From Calothrix membranacea FACHB-236 (GTDB lineage Bacteria; Cyanobacteriota; Cyanobacteriia; Cyanobacteriales; Nostocaceae): DNA of 46,400 bases. The notes beneath the pieces were generated by a model. That model was given only the letters and a program-made list of their open reading frames with translations. It ran no database searches and was not told the origin of the DNA. Both the position numbers and the translations under genes were made by a program. Location of the stretch: contig NZ_JACJPX010000065.1 of assembly GCF_014696315.1 (NCBI RefSeq), positions 1 to 46,400 on the forward strand, written 5' to 3'. Shown here in pieces: positions 6,100 through 10,766 of the stretch (position 1 is its first letter; every line of letters starts with the position of its first letter).

Positions 6100-6388
6100 A
6101 GCGGGTTATTGCTCCCTTGCTGCTTGGACTTTGGGTGAAATAATATATCACCCTCATCTAAAGTTTCATGTATTTTCTTAATGACAATGTATCTTTATTT
6201 AAAGTTGAATGACAGTAGTGAGAGCCGTAAGAGTTAAGGTGTGGTAGCCGTCAGTAGGAATAGTGAGTTTCGTCAGGTTTCCGGTATTAGTAGCAAATTT
6301 GACAGAGTTTGCTGATTTTCTAGAGGTCTTTTCTGTACCTTTGCTCTCAGATAGACTTAAAACTCAGGAATCAGAACTAGGATTTACT

Positions 6389-6685
6389 ATGACTGAAGCA
6401 TCTGGCGGTAAAGATCAACAGCATCCGCTGCACAACCGCGATCGCCCTACTATTGATATTTTACTTGCTCAAGAGGCGACAGATTATAATTTAGCAGAAC
6501 TGGCTCGGTTGTGGATACGGTATCAAGGCTTTCCCGGTGCTAGAGATATTCAGCAAGACTTAAATAAAGTCCTACAGCGTTGGGGTTTGACCGAAGCTGA
6601 ATTATTTGCTAAGACTCGTCAACTTCATGATGTCGGTGGAATTTATAAAAGTCGCGGCAAGAAAGAAGAGCAAGATTGGAATTAG
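6389..6685 (+). CDS. DUF3288 family protein
   Basis: 98 aa from the ATG at 6389. The same frame is open upstream to 6263, but those 42 residues look noncoding, and the family normally begins near the MTEASGGKDQQHP segment. Motifs seen: QQHPLHNRDRPTIDILLAQEATDYNLAELARLW and a C-terminal YKSRGKKEEQDW. The family is small, soluble and cyanobacterial, with no known function. The gene is divergent from clpC and ends just before a patch of dispersed GC-rich repeats. Confidence 0.8.
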   Translation: MTEASGGKDQQHPLHNRDRPTIDILLAQEATDYNLAELARLWIRYQGFPGARDIQQDLNKVLQRWGLTEAELFAKTRQLHDVGGIYKSRGKKEEQDWN

Positions 6686-6871: not shown

Positions 6872-8599
6872 ATGAGACACGAAAAACTCTCTCCTGGGCT
6901 ACTGTTGGCTTATCAAGACTATGAAAATGAAGGAGAGCAAGCTTTAACTACACATAAGCGATCGCTTGGCATAATTGCCCATAAAAGTCCTGTCAAGCCT
7001 ACTAAGAGTATTGTTTTTCTCTACTGCGAACCTGATGCAGACTTGAGCCATTTAGAACAATATGGAATTCGTGTTAATCAGGCTTCTGGTAGTGTGCGGA
7101 CTGCGTTTTTACCGCTACAGGCTTTAGATCCTTTATCAGAAGAAGATGTGATTCAGCGCATCAAACCATCACGCAAACTACATCTGCGGATGGATGTGGC
7201 ACCTGGAAAGGTGAAATTGCCAGAATTTAAAAACAAAACGGGATTGACTGGTAAGGGAGTACTCATTGGGATTGTCGATAGTGGCATTGATCCAAAACAT
7301 CCTGCCTTTGCTGGGCGGATTTTACGCATTTGGGATCAAACACTTCCAGGGCCAGGAGTCAAAGAAGGTGAGTACGGGGCTGAATTTACAGGCGAACAAA
7401 TGACCGTCTCTCAAGATACTGATGGTCATGGTACCCATGTTGCCGGAATTGCGGCTGGTGCAGATGAAACTTTTGCAGGTGTCGCACCAGAAGCAGAATT
7501 AGTCATCGTTAAGTCAGACTTACAGGATGCCCATATTGCCGATGCTGTGCGCTATGTTTTTCGTGTAGCAACAGATTTGGGACGGCCAGTAGTGTTAAAT
7601 ATGAGCTTGGGTGGACACGCTGATGCCCATGATGGAAGCGACTCCCTTTCTCGAATTATTGACGCGGAAACTGGGCCCGGCAGAATTGTCTGTTGTGCTG
7701 CAGGTAACGAAGGTAACGACAACATTCACGGACAAACCAATATAGCTGCGAAAAAGTCAGCCAGTATGCGCTTTAATGTGCCCTTAAATCAAGTAGGCAT
7801 AGTCTGGTTAAACGGTTGGTATGATGCCGACAGTGAATTAGAAATATCGCTGCGTAGTCCTAACGGTTTCGTCACCCCCTATCAAAAAATCATCACTGAC
7901 GGTAATCCCACCCAGGAATATCAATTACCCGATTCGCGGGTAGAAATTGTGACACCAGCACCAGATAAAGGCAACGGCGACCACAATTTCTTTGTGCAAA
8001 TTCGCGGTAATGGCCCTTCGCCAGTGATGGGAGGTATTTGGCAGTTACGAGTACGGAATACTAGTTCAACCGCCACACGCTTGGATGTATGGACTCTTGA
8101 CGATCATTCTTCAGTTTTCTTTACAGGTAAAAGTGTTAAGGATGCCGTAAAAATTGGCTCTCCGGGCGCTGCTAGTAGCGCAATTACAGTTGCAGCTTAT
8201 ACCACAAAAGTACAGTACACAGATATTGATAATCAAGTGCGAGACATGGGCTTAGAAGTGGATACCATGTCTGAGTTCAGTAGTGAAGGGCCATTGCGTA
8301 ATGATGCTCAAAAGCCGGATCTAGCTGCACCAGGAGCGATGATTGTTTCTGCTCTGTCTGCTAATGCTAGTCTCGATCGCTCCATGATGCTCAATTCTAA
8401 ATTTGTGGCGATGGCTGGTACTAGTATGGCGACACCATTCGTTACTGGTTTAGTAGCATTACTCTTACAACGTGACCCTAAACTTGACCCAAAGGCAGTA
8501 AAAGAATTACTACGTAAAAACAGTTCTATTCCTGGTAAACCCCCAGGAAGTTTTGATAGTAAATGGGGTTTTGGAGTGATTGATGCCGCAAATTTGTAG
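6872..8599 (+). CDS. S8 family (subtilisin-like) serine protease
   Basis: 575 aa from the ATG at 6872, chosen because GGAG sits 6 nt upstream (6862-6865); a GTG at 6860 is an alternative. Catalytic triad in this numbering: Asp136 (GIVDSGID), His186 (DGHGTHVAGIAAG), Ser518 (AGTSMATP), with oxyanion Asn279 (AAGNEGN). Residues ~1-110 form an N-terminal prodomain-like region ending LSEEDVIQRIKPSRKLHLR. About 150 residues (~290-440) are inserted between the Asn and Ser motifs, containing a beta-rich segment. No signal peptide is seen, so it may act intracellularly or use another export route. A terminator follows at 8618-8654. A small gene resembling the prodomain lies 1.9 kb downstream (10467-10766). 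Confidence 0.95.
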   Translation: MRHEKLSPGLLLAYQDYENEGEQALTTHKRSLGIIAHKSPVKPTKSIVFLYCEPDADLSHLEQYGIRVNQASGSVRTAFLPLQALDPLSEEDVIQRIKPSRKLHLRMDVAPGKVKLPEFKNKTGLTGKGVLIGIVDSGIDPKHPAFAGRILRIWDQTLPGPGVKEGEYGAEFTGEQMTVSQDTDGHGTHVAGIAAGADETFAGVAPEAELVIVKSDLQDAHIADAVRYVFRVATDLGRPVVLNMSLGGHADAHDGSDSLSRIIDAETGPGRIVCCAAGNEGNDNIHGQTNIAAKKSASMRFNVPLNQVGIVWLNGWYDADSELEISLRSPNGFVTPYQKIITDGNPTQEYQLPDSRVEIVTPAPDKGNGDHNFFVQIRGNGPSPVMGGIWQLRVRNTSSTATRLDVWTLDDHSSVFFTGKSVKDAVKIGSPGAASSAITVAAYTTKVQYTDIDNQVRDMGLEVDTMSEFSSEGPLRNDAQKPDLAAPGAMIVSALSANASLDRSMMLNSKFVAMAGTSMATPFVTGLVALLLQRDPKLDPKAVKELLRKNSSIPGKPPGSFDSKWGFGVIDAANL

Positions 8600-8617
8600 T
8601 TGAATAATCATTTGCTG

Positions 8618-8655
8618 AAATCGAGTTGATCCAAGTTGAGAACTCGATTTTTTTA
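8618..8655 (+). terminator. Rho-independent terminator of the S8 protease gene
   Basis: Stem AAATCGAGTT (8618-8627) / AACTCGATTT (8641-8650), with a T-run (8648-8654). Confidence 0.8.
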
Positions 8656-8668
8656 TTTAACTAAATAC

Positions 8669-8705
8669 CTTTTGGATGTCATTGAGAGCCAATGACATCC
8701 AAAAA
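8669..8705. repeat. Perfect 15-bp inverted repeat
   Basis: TTTTGGATGTCATTG (8670-8684), loop AGAGC, then its perfect complement (8690-8704). It could be a second bidirectional terminator or a small mobile palindrome. It is not followed by a clear T-run on the plus strand. Confidence 0.6.
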
Positions 8706-8841
8706 GTGAATCACAGGTATTAGGATAGGCGATCGCTGATTATGAAATATGGATAAAGGGGTAGCTCTTCAGGCTCTTGGAGAAGACTGCGATCGCACAA
8801 AGTCGGTAGCTCCCTGTCCATATTGATGCAAAATGTAAGGT

Positions 8842-9309
8842 ATGGAAATTAAAAATTTAATTTCACAGACTGAGTACGACATTTACACTGCGGTTTGTCA
8901 ACAAACAAACCTGTTTTTATTTCATCAGCCTGATACTATTTTTAATGATCACACTGCCGATGAGCAGTTTCATATAATTAATAACACACCACGATTTGGT
9001 GGCGCGTTTAAATACAAAGTAGTAAGACGCAAAGGTCTGATTGAGGATTACGAAGTCAAAAATGCGCGCCAGTGGACTCTGGAAAAGAGATTCTATTTTA
9101 AGAATGGATATTGCTTTGTTTCTGAGCTTACACATCAACAAACTGATAAACCTTGTGGAGTATTTACGCTGTCGCGTGTAGGGTTGAGTGCATCATTAGA
9201 TGATGCGCTTGTCCACATTGCTTACTCCATTTGTGGTTATTATTTATTGTTCCACCTCAATGGAAGCAACTGGGAGCAAGTTGGGTATCTCATGTCATAT
9301 TGTGTGTAA
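8842..9309 (+). CDS. Hypothetical protein (unrecognised)
   Basis: 155 aa, not recognised. No signal peptide or membrane segment stands out. It is rich in aromatic residues, with a possible alternating beta pattern (FKYKVVRRKGLIEDYEV, QWTLEKRFYFKNGYCFVSELTH), and ends in a Tyr/Cys-containing tail (VGYLMSYCV). The ATG is preceded only by a weak TAAGG close to the start. It lies between the protease terminator and a decayed gene remnant, so this stretch looks like variable DNA. Coding status is supported by the long uninterrupted frame only. Confidence 0.55.
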   Translation: MEIKNLISQTEYDIYTAVCQQTNLFLFHQPDTIFNDHTADEQFHIINNTPRFGGAFKYKVVRRKGLIEDYEVKNARQWTLEKRFYFKNGYCFVSELTHQQTDKPCGVFTLSRVGLSASLDDALVHIAYSICGYYLLFHLNGSNWEQVGYLMSYCV

Positions 9310-9643
9310 AGATTCAGGATGTCTTTATATGAGGGAATTACGACATTCAAGGGAAAACCGCTAGTATGAGCATTTAAGTTAAAGTCAGCTTTCATTGTCA
9401 CTCTGCTAAAAAGAGGCTTAAGTTTGCATACTAAATTCTTCAGGAGCAATACCCCAATTTACCTAACAAATAGCATCTTGTGCTGATTGAATATCAGGTG
9501 GTACGCGCAATACATGAATCCTTTGGGTGCTAGGACAGGTCATTTTCAACTTTTTTTCGCGATAATATTTAAACAGATGTTATGGAAAAATCAGCATAAA
9601 ATAGACGCAAAACTCACCTTAATATTAAAAATTAACAATAAAG
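9310..9643. other. Intergenic region with gene ghost
   Basis: 334 bp between the orphan CDS and the second Uma2 gene. Apart from the minus-strand remnant at 9418-9579 I see only AT-rich sequence, which must hold the promoter of the gene starting at 9644. Confidence 0.5.
9418..9579 (-). pseudogene. Remnant of a larger gene, C-terminal fragment (DUF6745-like) with internal stop
   Basis: On the minus strand one frame reads HLFKYYREKKLKMTCPST (from 9579), then QRIHVLRVPPDIQSAQDAIC, a TAG stop (~9465-9467), and VNWGIAPEEFSMQT before TAA at 9418. This resembles the conserved C-terminus of cyanobacterial proteins ending in ...LRVPP...A..W.N.GI.PEEF..QT, which I associate with the DUF6745 family (from memory, not searched). 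The frame is also closed by a stop just upstream of 9579. It is therefore a 5'-truncated fragment with an internal stop, a genuine gene ghost rather than a small gene. Confidence 0.6.
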
Positions 9644-10315
9644 ATGATCATGGTTAGCAGCCTTAAAGAACTAATTGATGAGCCAGAATTGGATCACGGT
9701 AACGATCCAGAAGAAAGGTTTATTAGTAGCGGTGTGAGTTGGGAAAGCTATGAATCGCTACTGGCGAAACTAGAAAATAACTCTCATTACCGAATTAATT
9801 ATTTAGATGGAATTTTAGAGATCGTGTCACCATCAATCAGACATGAAAAAATCAAAACGAATTTAGGGATGCTGTTGGAGCGTTTTTTCTACAGCAAGCG
9901 CATTCGCTTTGTACCTATGGGAAGCTCTACTTTTAAAGACAAAGCAAAAAAAGCTGGTGCAGAACCAGACGAGTGTTACTGCATAGGTGAAGAGAAAAAA
10001 GTACCAGATTTAGCTATAGAAGTAGTTTTGACTAGTGGCAGTGTTAGCAAACTGGAAATCTACCGCAGATTAGGAGTTGCAGAAGTCTGGTTTTGGGAAA
10101 GAAACCAATTTAAGTTATATCATCTACGTGACAATTCTCAGCAAGAGCAAGCTACTGTTTACCCTGATACTTATGGGTATGAAGCTCTCTCTAAAAGTGA
10201 GATACTACCAGAATTAGACATTTCTTTGCTCGAACAATGTCTGACAATCTCGGATTCAATTCAAGCTATTGACGAATTTGAGCAGGGGTTGAAAGCAGCC
10301 GATAAGCGCCAGTAA
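9644..10315 (+). CDS. Uma2 family (DUF820) endonuclease-like protein
   Basis: 223 aa, a second Uma2/DUF820 member in the window. The usual core is present: WESYESLLAKLENNSHYRINYLDGILEIVSPS (N-terminal family signature), the acidic catalytic-type segment AEPDECYCIG, and KVPDLAIEVVLTSGS...LEIYRRLGVAEVWFW (PD, E and K positions). Translation could start at 9644 or at the second ATG (9650). It lacks the coiled-coil tail of the copy at 2528-3259, and the two sequences are clearly different, so this is not a recent duplication. The fold is nuclease-like; the function is unknown. Confidence 0.85.
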   Translation: MIMVSSLKELIDEPELDHGNDPEERFISSGVSWESYESLLAKLENNSHYRINYLDGILEIVSPSIRHEKIKTNLGMLLERFFYSKRIRFVPMGSSTFKDKAKKAGAEPDECYCIGEEKKVPDLAIEVVLTSGSVSKLEIYRRLGVAEVWFWERNQFKLYHLRDNSQQEQATVYPDTYGYEALSKSEILPELDISLLEQCLTISDSIQAIDEFEQGLKAADKRQ

Positions 10316-10466
10316 TAGCCCTGACAATTAAAATCTGTAATTAGACGTAGGCAAGAGTATATTACGTCTGTATAAGGGTAGGTAATTAAAACCGATAAAT
10401 TTGATAGCTTGGTAATAAGATAGGTGACAATCAAAATTGCCTGTCTTAATTATCAAGGATTTGCTT

Positions 10467-10766
10467 ATGAATTATCAGAAGCTAGATGCTGCCCTAGCCA
10501 CAGCCCTTAATGATGTATCAGACCCAGAAACACCAAGTTTGACAGTATTTATCCACACCGAACCTATTTTAGATTCGGATGCAACGGCTGTTTTAGAAAA
10601 TCTTAATGTGGCTGGTGTAACTCCGGGAAAAGATACTTTTACAGCAACCCTTTCCGCCAATGCCATTGCTCAGTTATCTGAACAAGCTTGGGTGCAATAT
10701 ATAAAGTTATCGCAGAAATTGCATTTAGTTAACACCAGGTTAAATTTTCGGAAATTGGGTGTTTAA
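10467..10766 (+). CDS. Small protein resembling the subtilase prodomain
   Basis: 99 aa from the ATG at 10467, preferred over an in-frame TTG at 10437 because AAGGA (10455-10459) sits 7 nt upstream. The protein matches the N-terminal prodomain-like region of the S8 protease encoded at 6872-8599: here KLDAALATAL...FIHTEP...VLENLNV...LSEQAWVQYIKLSQKLHL, there KLSPGLLLAY...FLYCEP...HLEQYGI...LSEEDVIQRIKPSRKLHL. Family knowledge: S8 prodomains act as intramolecular chaperones and inhibitors, and free-standing I9-like versions can inhibit proteases in trans. I infer, without proof, that this protein could bind the neighbouring or another cellular subtilase. It has no signal peptide or catalytic residues. 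Confidence 0.75.
   Translation: MNYQKLDAALATALNDVSDPETPSLTVFIHTEPILDSDATAVLENLNVAGVTPGKDTFTATLSANAIAQLSEQAWVQYIKLSQKLHLVNTRLNFRKLGV

Follow-up and report, generated by a model that had tools for sequence, protein, structure and literature searches.

A free-standing paralogue of a subtilase prodomain, and candidate inhibitor in trans, encoded near a Csp-like protease in Calothrix membranacea

The prodomains of S8 proteases (subtilases) fold their own enzyme in cis and then inhibit it. What use might a bacterium have for a second prodomain, encoded on its own near a protease that already carries one? The question is raised by a locus of Calothrix membranacea FACHB-236 (contig NZ_JACJPX010000065.1, positions 1 to 46,400; this stretch of 46,400 nucleotides is the window referred to below), in which the gene of a small protein lies downstream of an S8 protease gene. 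An earlier note, made from the DNA sequence alone, had described the two open reading frames, likened the small protein to residues ~1-110 of the protease and proposed a duplicated prodomain that acts in trans as an inhibitor or chaperone. Both frames are where that note placed them and the likeness holds. Sequence comparison makes the small protein a paralogue, encoded on its own, of the prodomain at the N-terminus of the neighbouring S8 protease. With a probability of about 65%, we consider it a dedicated trans-acting inhibitor of this protease inside the cell, the protease maturing itself with its cis prodomain.

Aligned directly, the two proteins give a local BLOSUM62 score of 74, which none of 5000 shuffles reached (24.8 ± 4.2). 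When a profile of 29 small proteins was compared with one of 30 protease N-termini (one of 30 loci, with an internal stop, was left out by hand), residues 1-88 were placed on residues 1-106 with a probability of 95.9% and an expectation value (E) of 6e-9. Wider profiles, with more diverse rows and an actinobacterial pair added, gave 97.7% and 2.5e-12. Among the controls, five protease segments past the prodomain and eight column shuffles did not exceed 0.5%, and the single segment that overlaps the prodomain end scored 84%. Run against 2612 frames of at least 60 residues from 80 named loci, the small-family profile matches only the 80 small proteins and the S8 N-terminus in 53 of 62 cases; conversely, the prodomain profile matches only the 62 S8 proteases and 77 of the 80 small proteins. 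For the 61 named pairs (62 less one with a truncated protease) the median z is 8.7, and 59 of them beat all 200 shuffles. Further alignments used hand-chosen sets of 51 of the 80 named small proteins and 40 of the 61 proteases.

The homology stops where the prodomain does. Protease residue 113 aligns to residue 10 of mature subtilisins, and residue 116 to the tenth residue of the CspB chain, so that the mature enzyme is expected to start at about 104-107; the S-x-x-L-x-L segment common to the two proteins ends at protease residue 105. When the sequences are anchored on its Ser, Leu is found at +3 in 75/80 small proteins and 55/61 proteases, and at +5 in 75/80 and 58/61, respectively. Past this segment the proteases continue x-M-D in 61/61 cases, x being R in 53 (one of the 62 has no anchor), whereas the small proteins mostly read V-N (V in 50, N in 67 of 80) and terminate 3-24 residues later. 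This divergence and early stop indicate that the small protein is a prodomain and little else. Homology is thus significant along the domain and confined to it, ending at the catalytic junction, as expected of a paralogue. In a tree, the 61 small proteins examined fall into a single clade, separate from the prodomains, which is what a single old duplication would leave; the suggestion that the prodomain had been duplicated is supported by both results. Mirror-tree comparisons (rho 0.63 for small protein and prodomain, 0.76 for small protein and catalytic domain, 0.81 for prodomain and catalytic domain) were set aside as evidence of coupling, since they reveal none beyond shared ancestry.

The expectations of a prodomain-like fold and of a relation to prodomains in profile searches were likewise confirmed. 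The best matches of the small protein's predicted fold (predicted local distance difference test, pLDDT, 73.5) are subtilisin proforms and the stand-alone inhibitor POIA1, and the relation to a prodomain was recovered by hhalign. Inhibitor_I9 (PF05922) is matched by 16 of 52 small-family members, at best with E 0.014, and by the window protein not at all; because the curated Pfam cut-off is not reached, the small protein is called I9-like and not a Pfam I9 member. Neither Pfam nor NCBIfam has a name for the window small protein. A sequence search of solved structures with the small protein or the prodomain returned only pentatricopeptide-repeat and other chance-like matches, which were rejected.

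The case has three weaker points. For the divergent pair of genome G152, 21 of 5000 shuffles score as high. A search of the whole genome with the single sequence gives the protease only E 0.076, next to 0.094 for an unrelated non-S8 frame, so that the significance of the homology rests on the profiles. Finally, the conserved C-terminal junction segment is modelled as a low-confidence helix and not as an extended tail.

The near-equal score of the non-S8 frame might also be taken to mean that the small protein binds some other partner, either one of the eight other S8 frames in the genome or a non-protease target contacted through its conserved N-terminal helix. Indeed, conservation is among the highest over its first 14 residues, beyond the need of an I9 core alone. 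We regard this as unlikely since the same N-terminal segment occurs in the protease prodomain, the presence or absence of the small gene closely tracks that of the window-type protease (see below) and, with the small-family profile, nothing in the genome besides the small protein and this protease scores at E ≤ 0.001. The earlier note had allowed for this or another subtilase as the target. The choice can be narrowed towards the first: the genome has 10 Pfam S8 matches in 9 open frames, and only the window protease matches the prodomain at E ≤ 1.

The features of the locus are collected in Table 1. The start of the protease was taken as the first ATG because relatives align from there; the mechanical open reading frame begins at GTG 6860. 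No signal peptide is apparent at its N-terminus, as judged by eye and without a signal-peptide program, and the enzyme is probably cytosolic. Asp136, His186 and Ser518, which we take to be the catalytic triad, are invariant in 41 aligned sequences. Together with the internal insertion, which is beta-rich in a full-length model of low confidence (pLDDT 49.6, too poor to use further), they give the enzyme the make-up of a CspB-like S8 protease. It aligns with Csp structures over residues 116-533 and Csp proteins are among its best-scoring solved relatives, the best match being a Thermococcus-type subtilase and not a Csp. The NCBIfam CspBA/CspC models match below their curated cut-offs, and CspB_prodomain (PF18425) matches 0 of 30 protease N-termini. 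From these sequence matches the enzyme is named Csp-like, not Csp. A DUF3288 gene lies upstream of it (6263-6685), and a strong hairpin of 19 pairs (8667-8707) follows shortly 3' of it. The small gene is preceded by AAGGA (10455-10459), which reads as a ribosome-binding sequence 7 nucleotides 5' of the ATG.

Table 1. Features of the protease and small-protein locus (window positions unless another locus is named)
Feature	Position	Strand	Basis or remark
Free-standing prodomain-like protein, 99 residues, proposed trans inhibitor of the S8 protease	10467..10766	+	ATG 10467, stop 10766
S8 (subtilase) protease, 575 residues, Csp-like	6872..8599	+	ATG 6872, stop 8599; Peptidase_S8 164.7 bits
Protease cis prodomain, residues 1-105, part homologous to the small protein	6872..7186	+	hhalign
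S-R-K-L-H-L at the prodomain/catalytic junction (small protein: S-Q-K-L-H-L)	7169..7186	+	Sequences diverge right after
S8 catalytic domain, first half	7250..7720	+	PF00082 match
Insertion within the catalytic domain, Csp-like placement	7721..8128	+	Gap between two PF00082 matches; Csp alignments span the gap
S8 catalytic domain, second half, with the catalytic Ser	8129..8524	+	PF00082 match
Conserved leader of the small gene; the intergenic gap where the genes adjoin	10331..10466	+	Alignment of leaders
Leader hairpin, 18 nucleotides 5' of the ATG	10416..10448	+	Pairing and covariation, 49 leaders
Embleya protease and small-gene pair	L195:4168-6282		Gene table of the record lists only 7 features

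The likeness to CspB suggests one further role. The CspB prodomain stays tightly bound and inhibits its enzyme (excerpt of PMC3567191), so that a free copy could be a regulator that displaces a retained cis prodomain, activating the protease or setting its threshold. This seems improbable, since the S-x-x-L-x-L segment shared by the two proteins suggests the same occluding mode of binding.

The earlier note had proposed a check for co-occurrence of the two genes, and they do occur together in every sample drawn (the family, order and phylum samples overlap in genomes). Among 145 genomes of the window's family, 96 hold both genes, 3 the small gene only, 2 the protease only and 44 neither; the pair is thus complete in 96 of the 101 genomes that hold either gene. 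In 84 of the 96 the genes share contig and strand, and in 72 of these the small gene lies downstream, 1.7-4.0 kb from start to start. In four genomes the two genes are on opposite strands, and in eight they fall on different contigs, although some contig breaks may conceal linkage. The order sample of 388 genomes divides into 42 with both, 3 with the small gene only, 3 with the protease only and 340 with neither; four further families (f4, f6, f10 and f50) hold both genes there, some copies looking broken. The phylum sample of 386 genomes has 16 with both and 1 with the protease only. In the large draws no more than 11-13 candidates of each genome were scored on the first pass, and misses are possible. 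At the named loci with both genes, the small gene is downstream on the same strand in 62/62 cases, the arrangement of an ORF2-type chaperone, and the gap is below 500 nucleotides in 51/62 (1.87 kb in the window). Among viral contigs, none of 97 pattern matches was confirmed as a relative.

Among the unpaired genomes of the family, G135 is 54% complete, and G097 has its small gene close to a contig end (about 0.4 kb), on the side expected to hold the protease. G032 lacks a protease in the 2.7 kb by which its contig extends upstream. In G001 two weak small-protein-like fragments (E about 0.5) come right after the protease (L184:5588-5777), and are no more than suggestive of a decayed small gene. 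G139 gave no such trace. It belongs to genus g39, whose listed members have both genes (G079, G102), neither (G039, G116) or, in G139, the protease only, a pattern that fits joint loss or gain. In the order sample, G703, G707 and G740 hold the small gene without the protease, and G626 (88% complete) the protease without the small gene. Outside the family, G732 has an internal stop in the small gene, and the protease frames of G553, G695 and G732 are short or interrupted.

Since the small protein arose by copying part of a neighbouring gene, and a few distant copies carry an internal stop, it could in principle be a functionless duplicated remnant that hitch-hikes beside the protease. This is very improbable. 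The small gene is under purifying selection, with ratios of non-synonymous to synonymous substitution (dN/dS) of 0.09-0.19 in 12 comparisons; it is kept in the 12 of 96 family genomes whose genes lie on opposite strands or different contigs (allowing again for hidden linkage), and it occurs in several families and another phylum.

The same distribution bears on whether the small protein is an external folding chaperone that inhibits only in passing, as in the Aeromonas pair of ORF2 and the protease ASP. The gene order is the same and ORF2, too, inhibits its enzyme (excerpt of PMC5638518); moreover, the CspB prodomain acts as a chaperone in trans (excerpt of PMC3567191). However, ASP is propeptide-deficient, while the prodomain of the present protease is complete and conserved, so that a second foldase seems unneeded; the protease also persists without a detectable small gene in G001, G139 and G626. 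A chaperone is therefore a doubtful, though not a negligible, prospect. Of the two roles the earlier note left side by side, inhibition is favoured because the protease retains its own prodomain.

The other phylum mentioned above is represented by Embleya sp. NBC_00896 (Actinomycetota). A translated search of 72,556 plasmids found a single small-protein site, on its megaplasmid: an open reading frame of 93 residues with 36% identity over residues 1-86 (E 1e-4), which a profile built without it ranks at E 1.1e-15 among 300 frames. Directly upstream, on the same strand and 108 nucleotides away, lies an S8 gene whose product is 47% identical to the window protease over 99% of its length. Five plasmid records have an S8 match at E ≤ 1e-30, and only that of Embleya exceeds 31% identity. 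Of the other four, one is from Monoglobus and three are from Rhizobium; in the Monoglobus record and the one Rhizobium record examined, the profile found no free small protein, and the front of the Rhizobium S8 protein itself is a weak match (E 0.009-0.04). Neither chance nor cyanobacterial ancestry by itself readily accounts for such a pairing, which suggests that the genes have moved between phyla or are more widespread than the sample shows. The earlier note had known of no cyanobacterial case; the pair turns out not to be only cyanobacterial.

In the window, the 1.87 kb between the genes holds an open reading frame of no known family (8842-9309) and, after it, a gene of the Uma2 family (9644-10315). 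The segment 8600-10330 parts two genes that adjoin in most relatives having both nearby. From about 10324-10331 on, the sequence before the small gene corresponds to the one found after the protease stop in genomes whose two genes adjoin. The match includes the stretch AATCTGTAATTAGA, which in those genomes holds the last protease codons. To judge from these matches, it looks as if a once-adjacent pair was later split.

To judge by the genomes compared, the small gene keeps this leader in front of it also when it is remote from the protease. No other full match to it exists in the genome, the best being 22 bases at E 0.3. It carries a conserved stretch, GTATAAGGGTAGGTAAT ... AAATTTGATA, and a partly covarying hairpin, which many of the listed relatives have about 18-33 nucleotides 5' of the ATG. 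The hairpin was assessed in 49 leaders (48 of 80 and that of the window), hand-picked as alignable, a choice that favours conservation. In these, 86.9% of cells pair, a value no shuffle reaches, and sliding the partner by 1-3 columns lowers pairing to 56% or less; 32 cells have changed on both sides (13.0 ± 3.7 in shuffles, none reaching 32). Two other counts are unexceptional: 7 pairs show a double change (6.0 in shuffles, 187/500 of which reach 7), and there are 17 further pair types (15.4 in shuffles, 92/500 reaching 17). RNAalifold retains five of the pairs, at -3.4 kcal/mol. T-rich sequence lies 3' of the hairpin in many leaders, with the ribosome-binding sequence nearby. Rfam gave no window match at gathering scores and two sub-threshold matches within the leader. 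The leader may function as an attenuator or as a promoter region; the hairpin may allow the small protein and the protease to be made at independent levels.

Inhibition in trans could then work as follows. The protease would fold and mature via its own cis prodomain. The small protein, adopting the same I9-type fold, would dock on the mature catalytic domain at the site vacated by that prodomain, its S-Q-x-L-x-L segment sitting in the substrate cleft, and the enzyme would be restrained until the small protein is degraded or outcompeted. We infer binding, inhibition, a cytosolic location and this protease as the target from the homology and its limit at the junction, the prodomain-like predicted fold, purifying selection, near-obligate co-retention and linkage. 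By analogy with YIB2 and SUB1-ProM, a free copy that keeps the core and the junction segment would best be read as a post-maturation inhibitor.

More tentatively, at somewhat less than even odds, the locus may represent a bacterial module of two genes that has not been described before. One gene would encode a cytosolic CspB-like subtilase that matures itself, and the other, behind a leader with a conserved hairpin, a free paralogue of its prodomain; the two would be kept or lost as a unit and be common to cyanobacteria and an actinomycete megaplasmid. Such a module would be a tunable and renewable off switch for an intracellular subtilase. How bacterial cytoplasmic subtilases are restrained after prodomain loss is seldom known, and the pair offers a directly testable answer; it also lends itself naturally to comparing a prodomain that acts as chaperone in cis with a twin that would act as inhibitor in trans.

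Free propeptide-like inhibitors are known as a kind, YIB2 being the inhibitor of yeast proteinase B. The stand-alone I9 proteins YIB2, POIA1 and SPI-1 (of yeast, Pleurotus and Arabidopsis), as well as TgMIC5, are all eukaryotic, and the first three, which are well characterised, are described as having the propeptide fold but lacking significant sequence similarity to propeptides (excerpt of PMC6993865); in contrast, the protein described here can be recognised as a paralogue of the prodomain of its partner, and the genes of the two are linked. SUB1-ProM of Plasmodium is closer, as a stand-alone propeptide-like protein from a conserved locus beside subtilase genes, whose target has its own propeptide. 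However, it is eukaryotic and predicted to be secreted, and its inhibition of SUB1 has been demonstrated (same excerpt), whereas the present pair is bacterial, has no apparent signal peptide and is predicted to be inhibitory; here, sequence profiles reveal the kinship with the cis prodomain.

The bacterial parallels differ in other ways. ORF2 of Aeromonas sobria, a chaperone that also inhibits, is likewise encoded just downstream of a subtilase, but its partner ASP is propeptide-deficient and secreted (excerpt of PMC5638518), while the protease here has a conserved, homologous N-terminal prodomain and no apparent signal peptide. Clostridium CspB (PDB 4i0w) is an S8 enzyme with an insertion in its catalytic domain, like the present one; its prodomain works in trans and remains bound, the final residues blocking the active site even when it is supplied in trans (excerpt of PMC3567191). 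That excerpt mentions no free-standing prodomain gene, and the N-terminal domain here does not match the Pfam CspB_prodomain. A search of a collection of open-access papers found no report of a bacterial pair with a sequence-related free prodomain, and this bacterial version of a known kind of inhibitor appears to be new.

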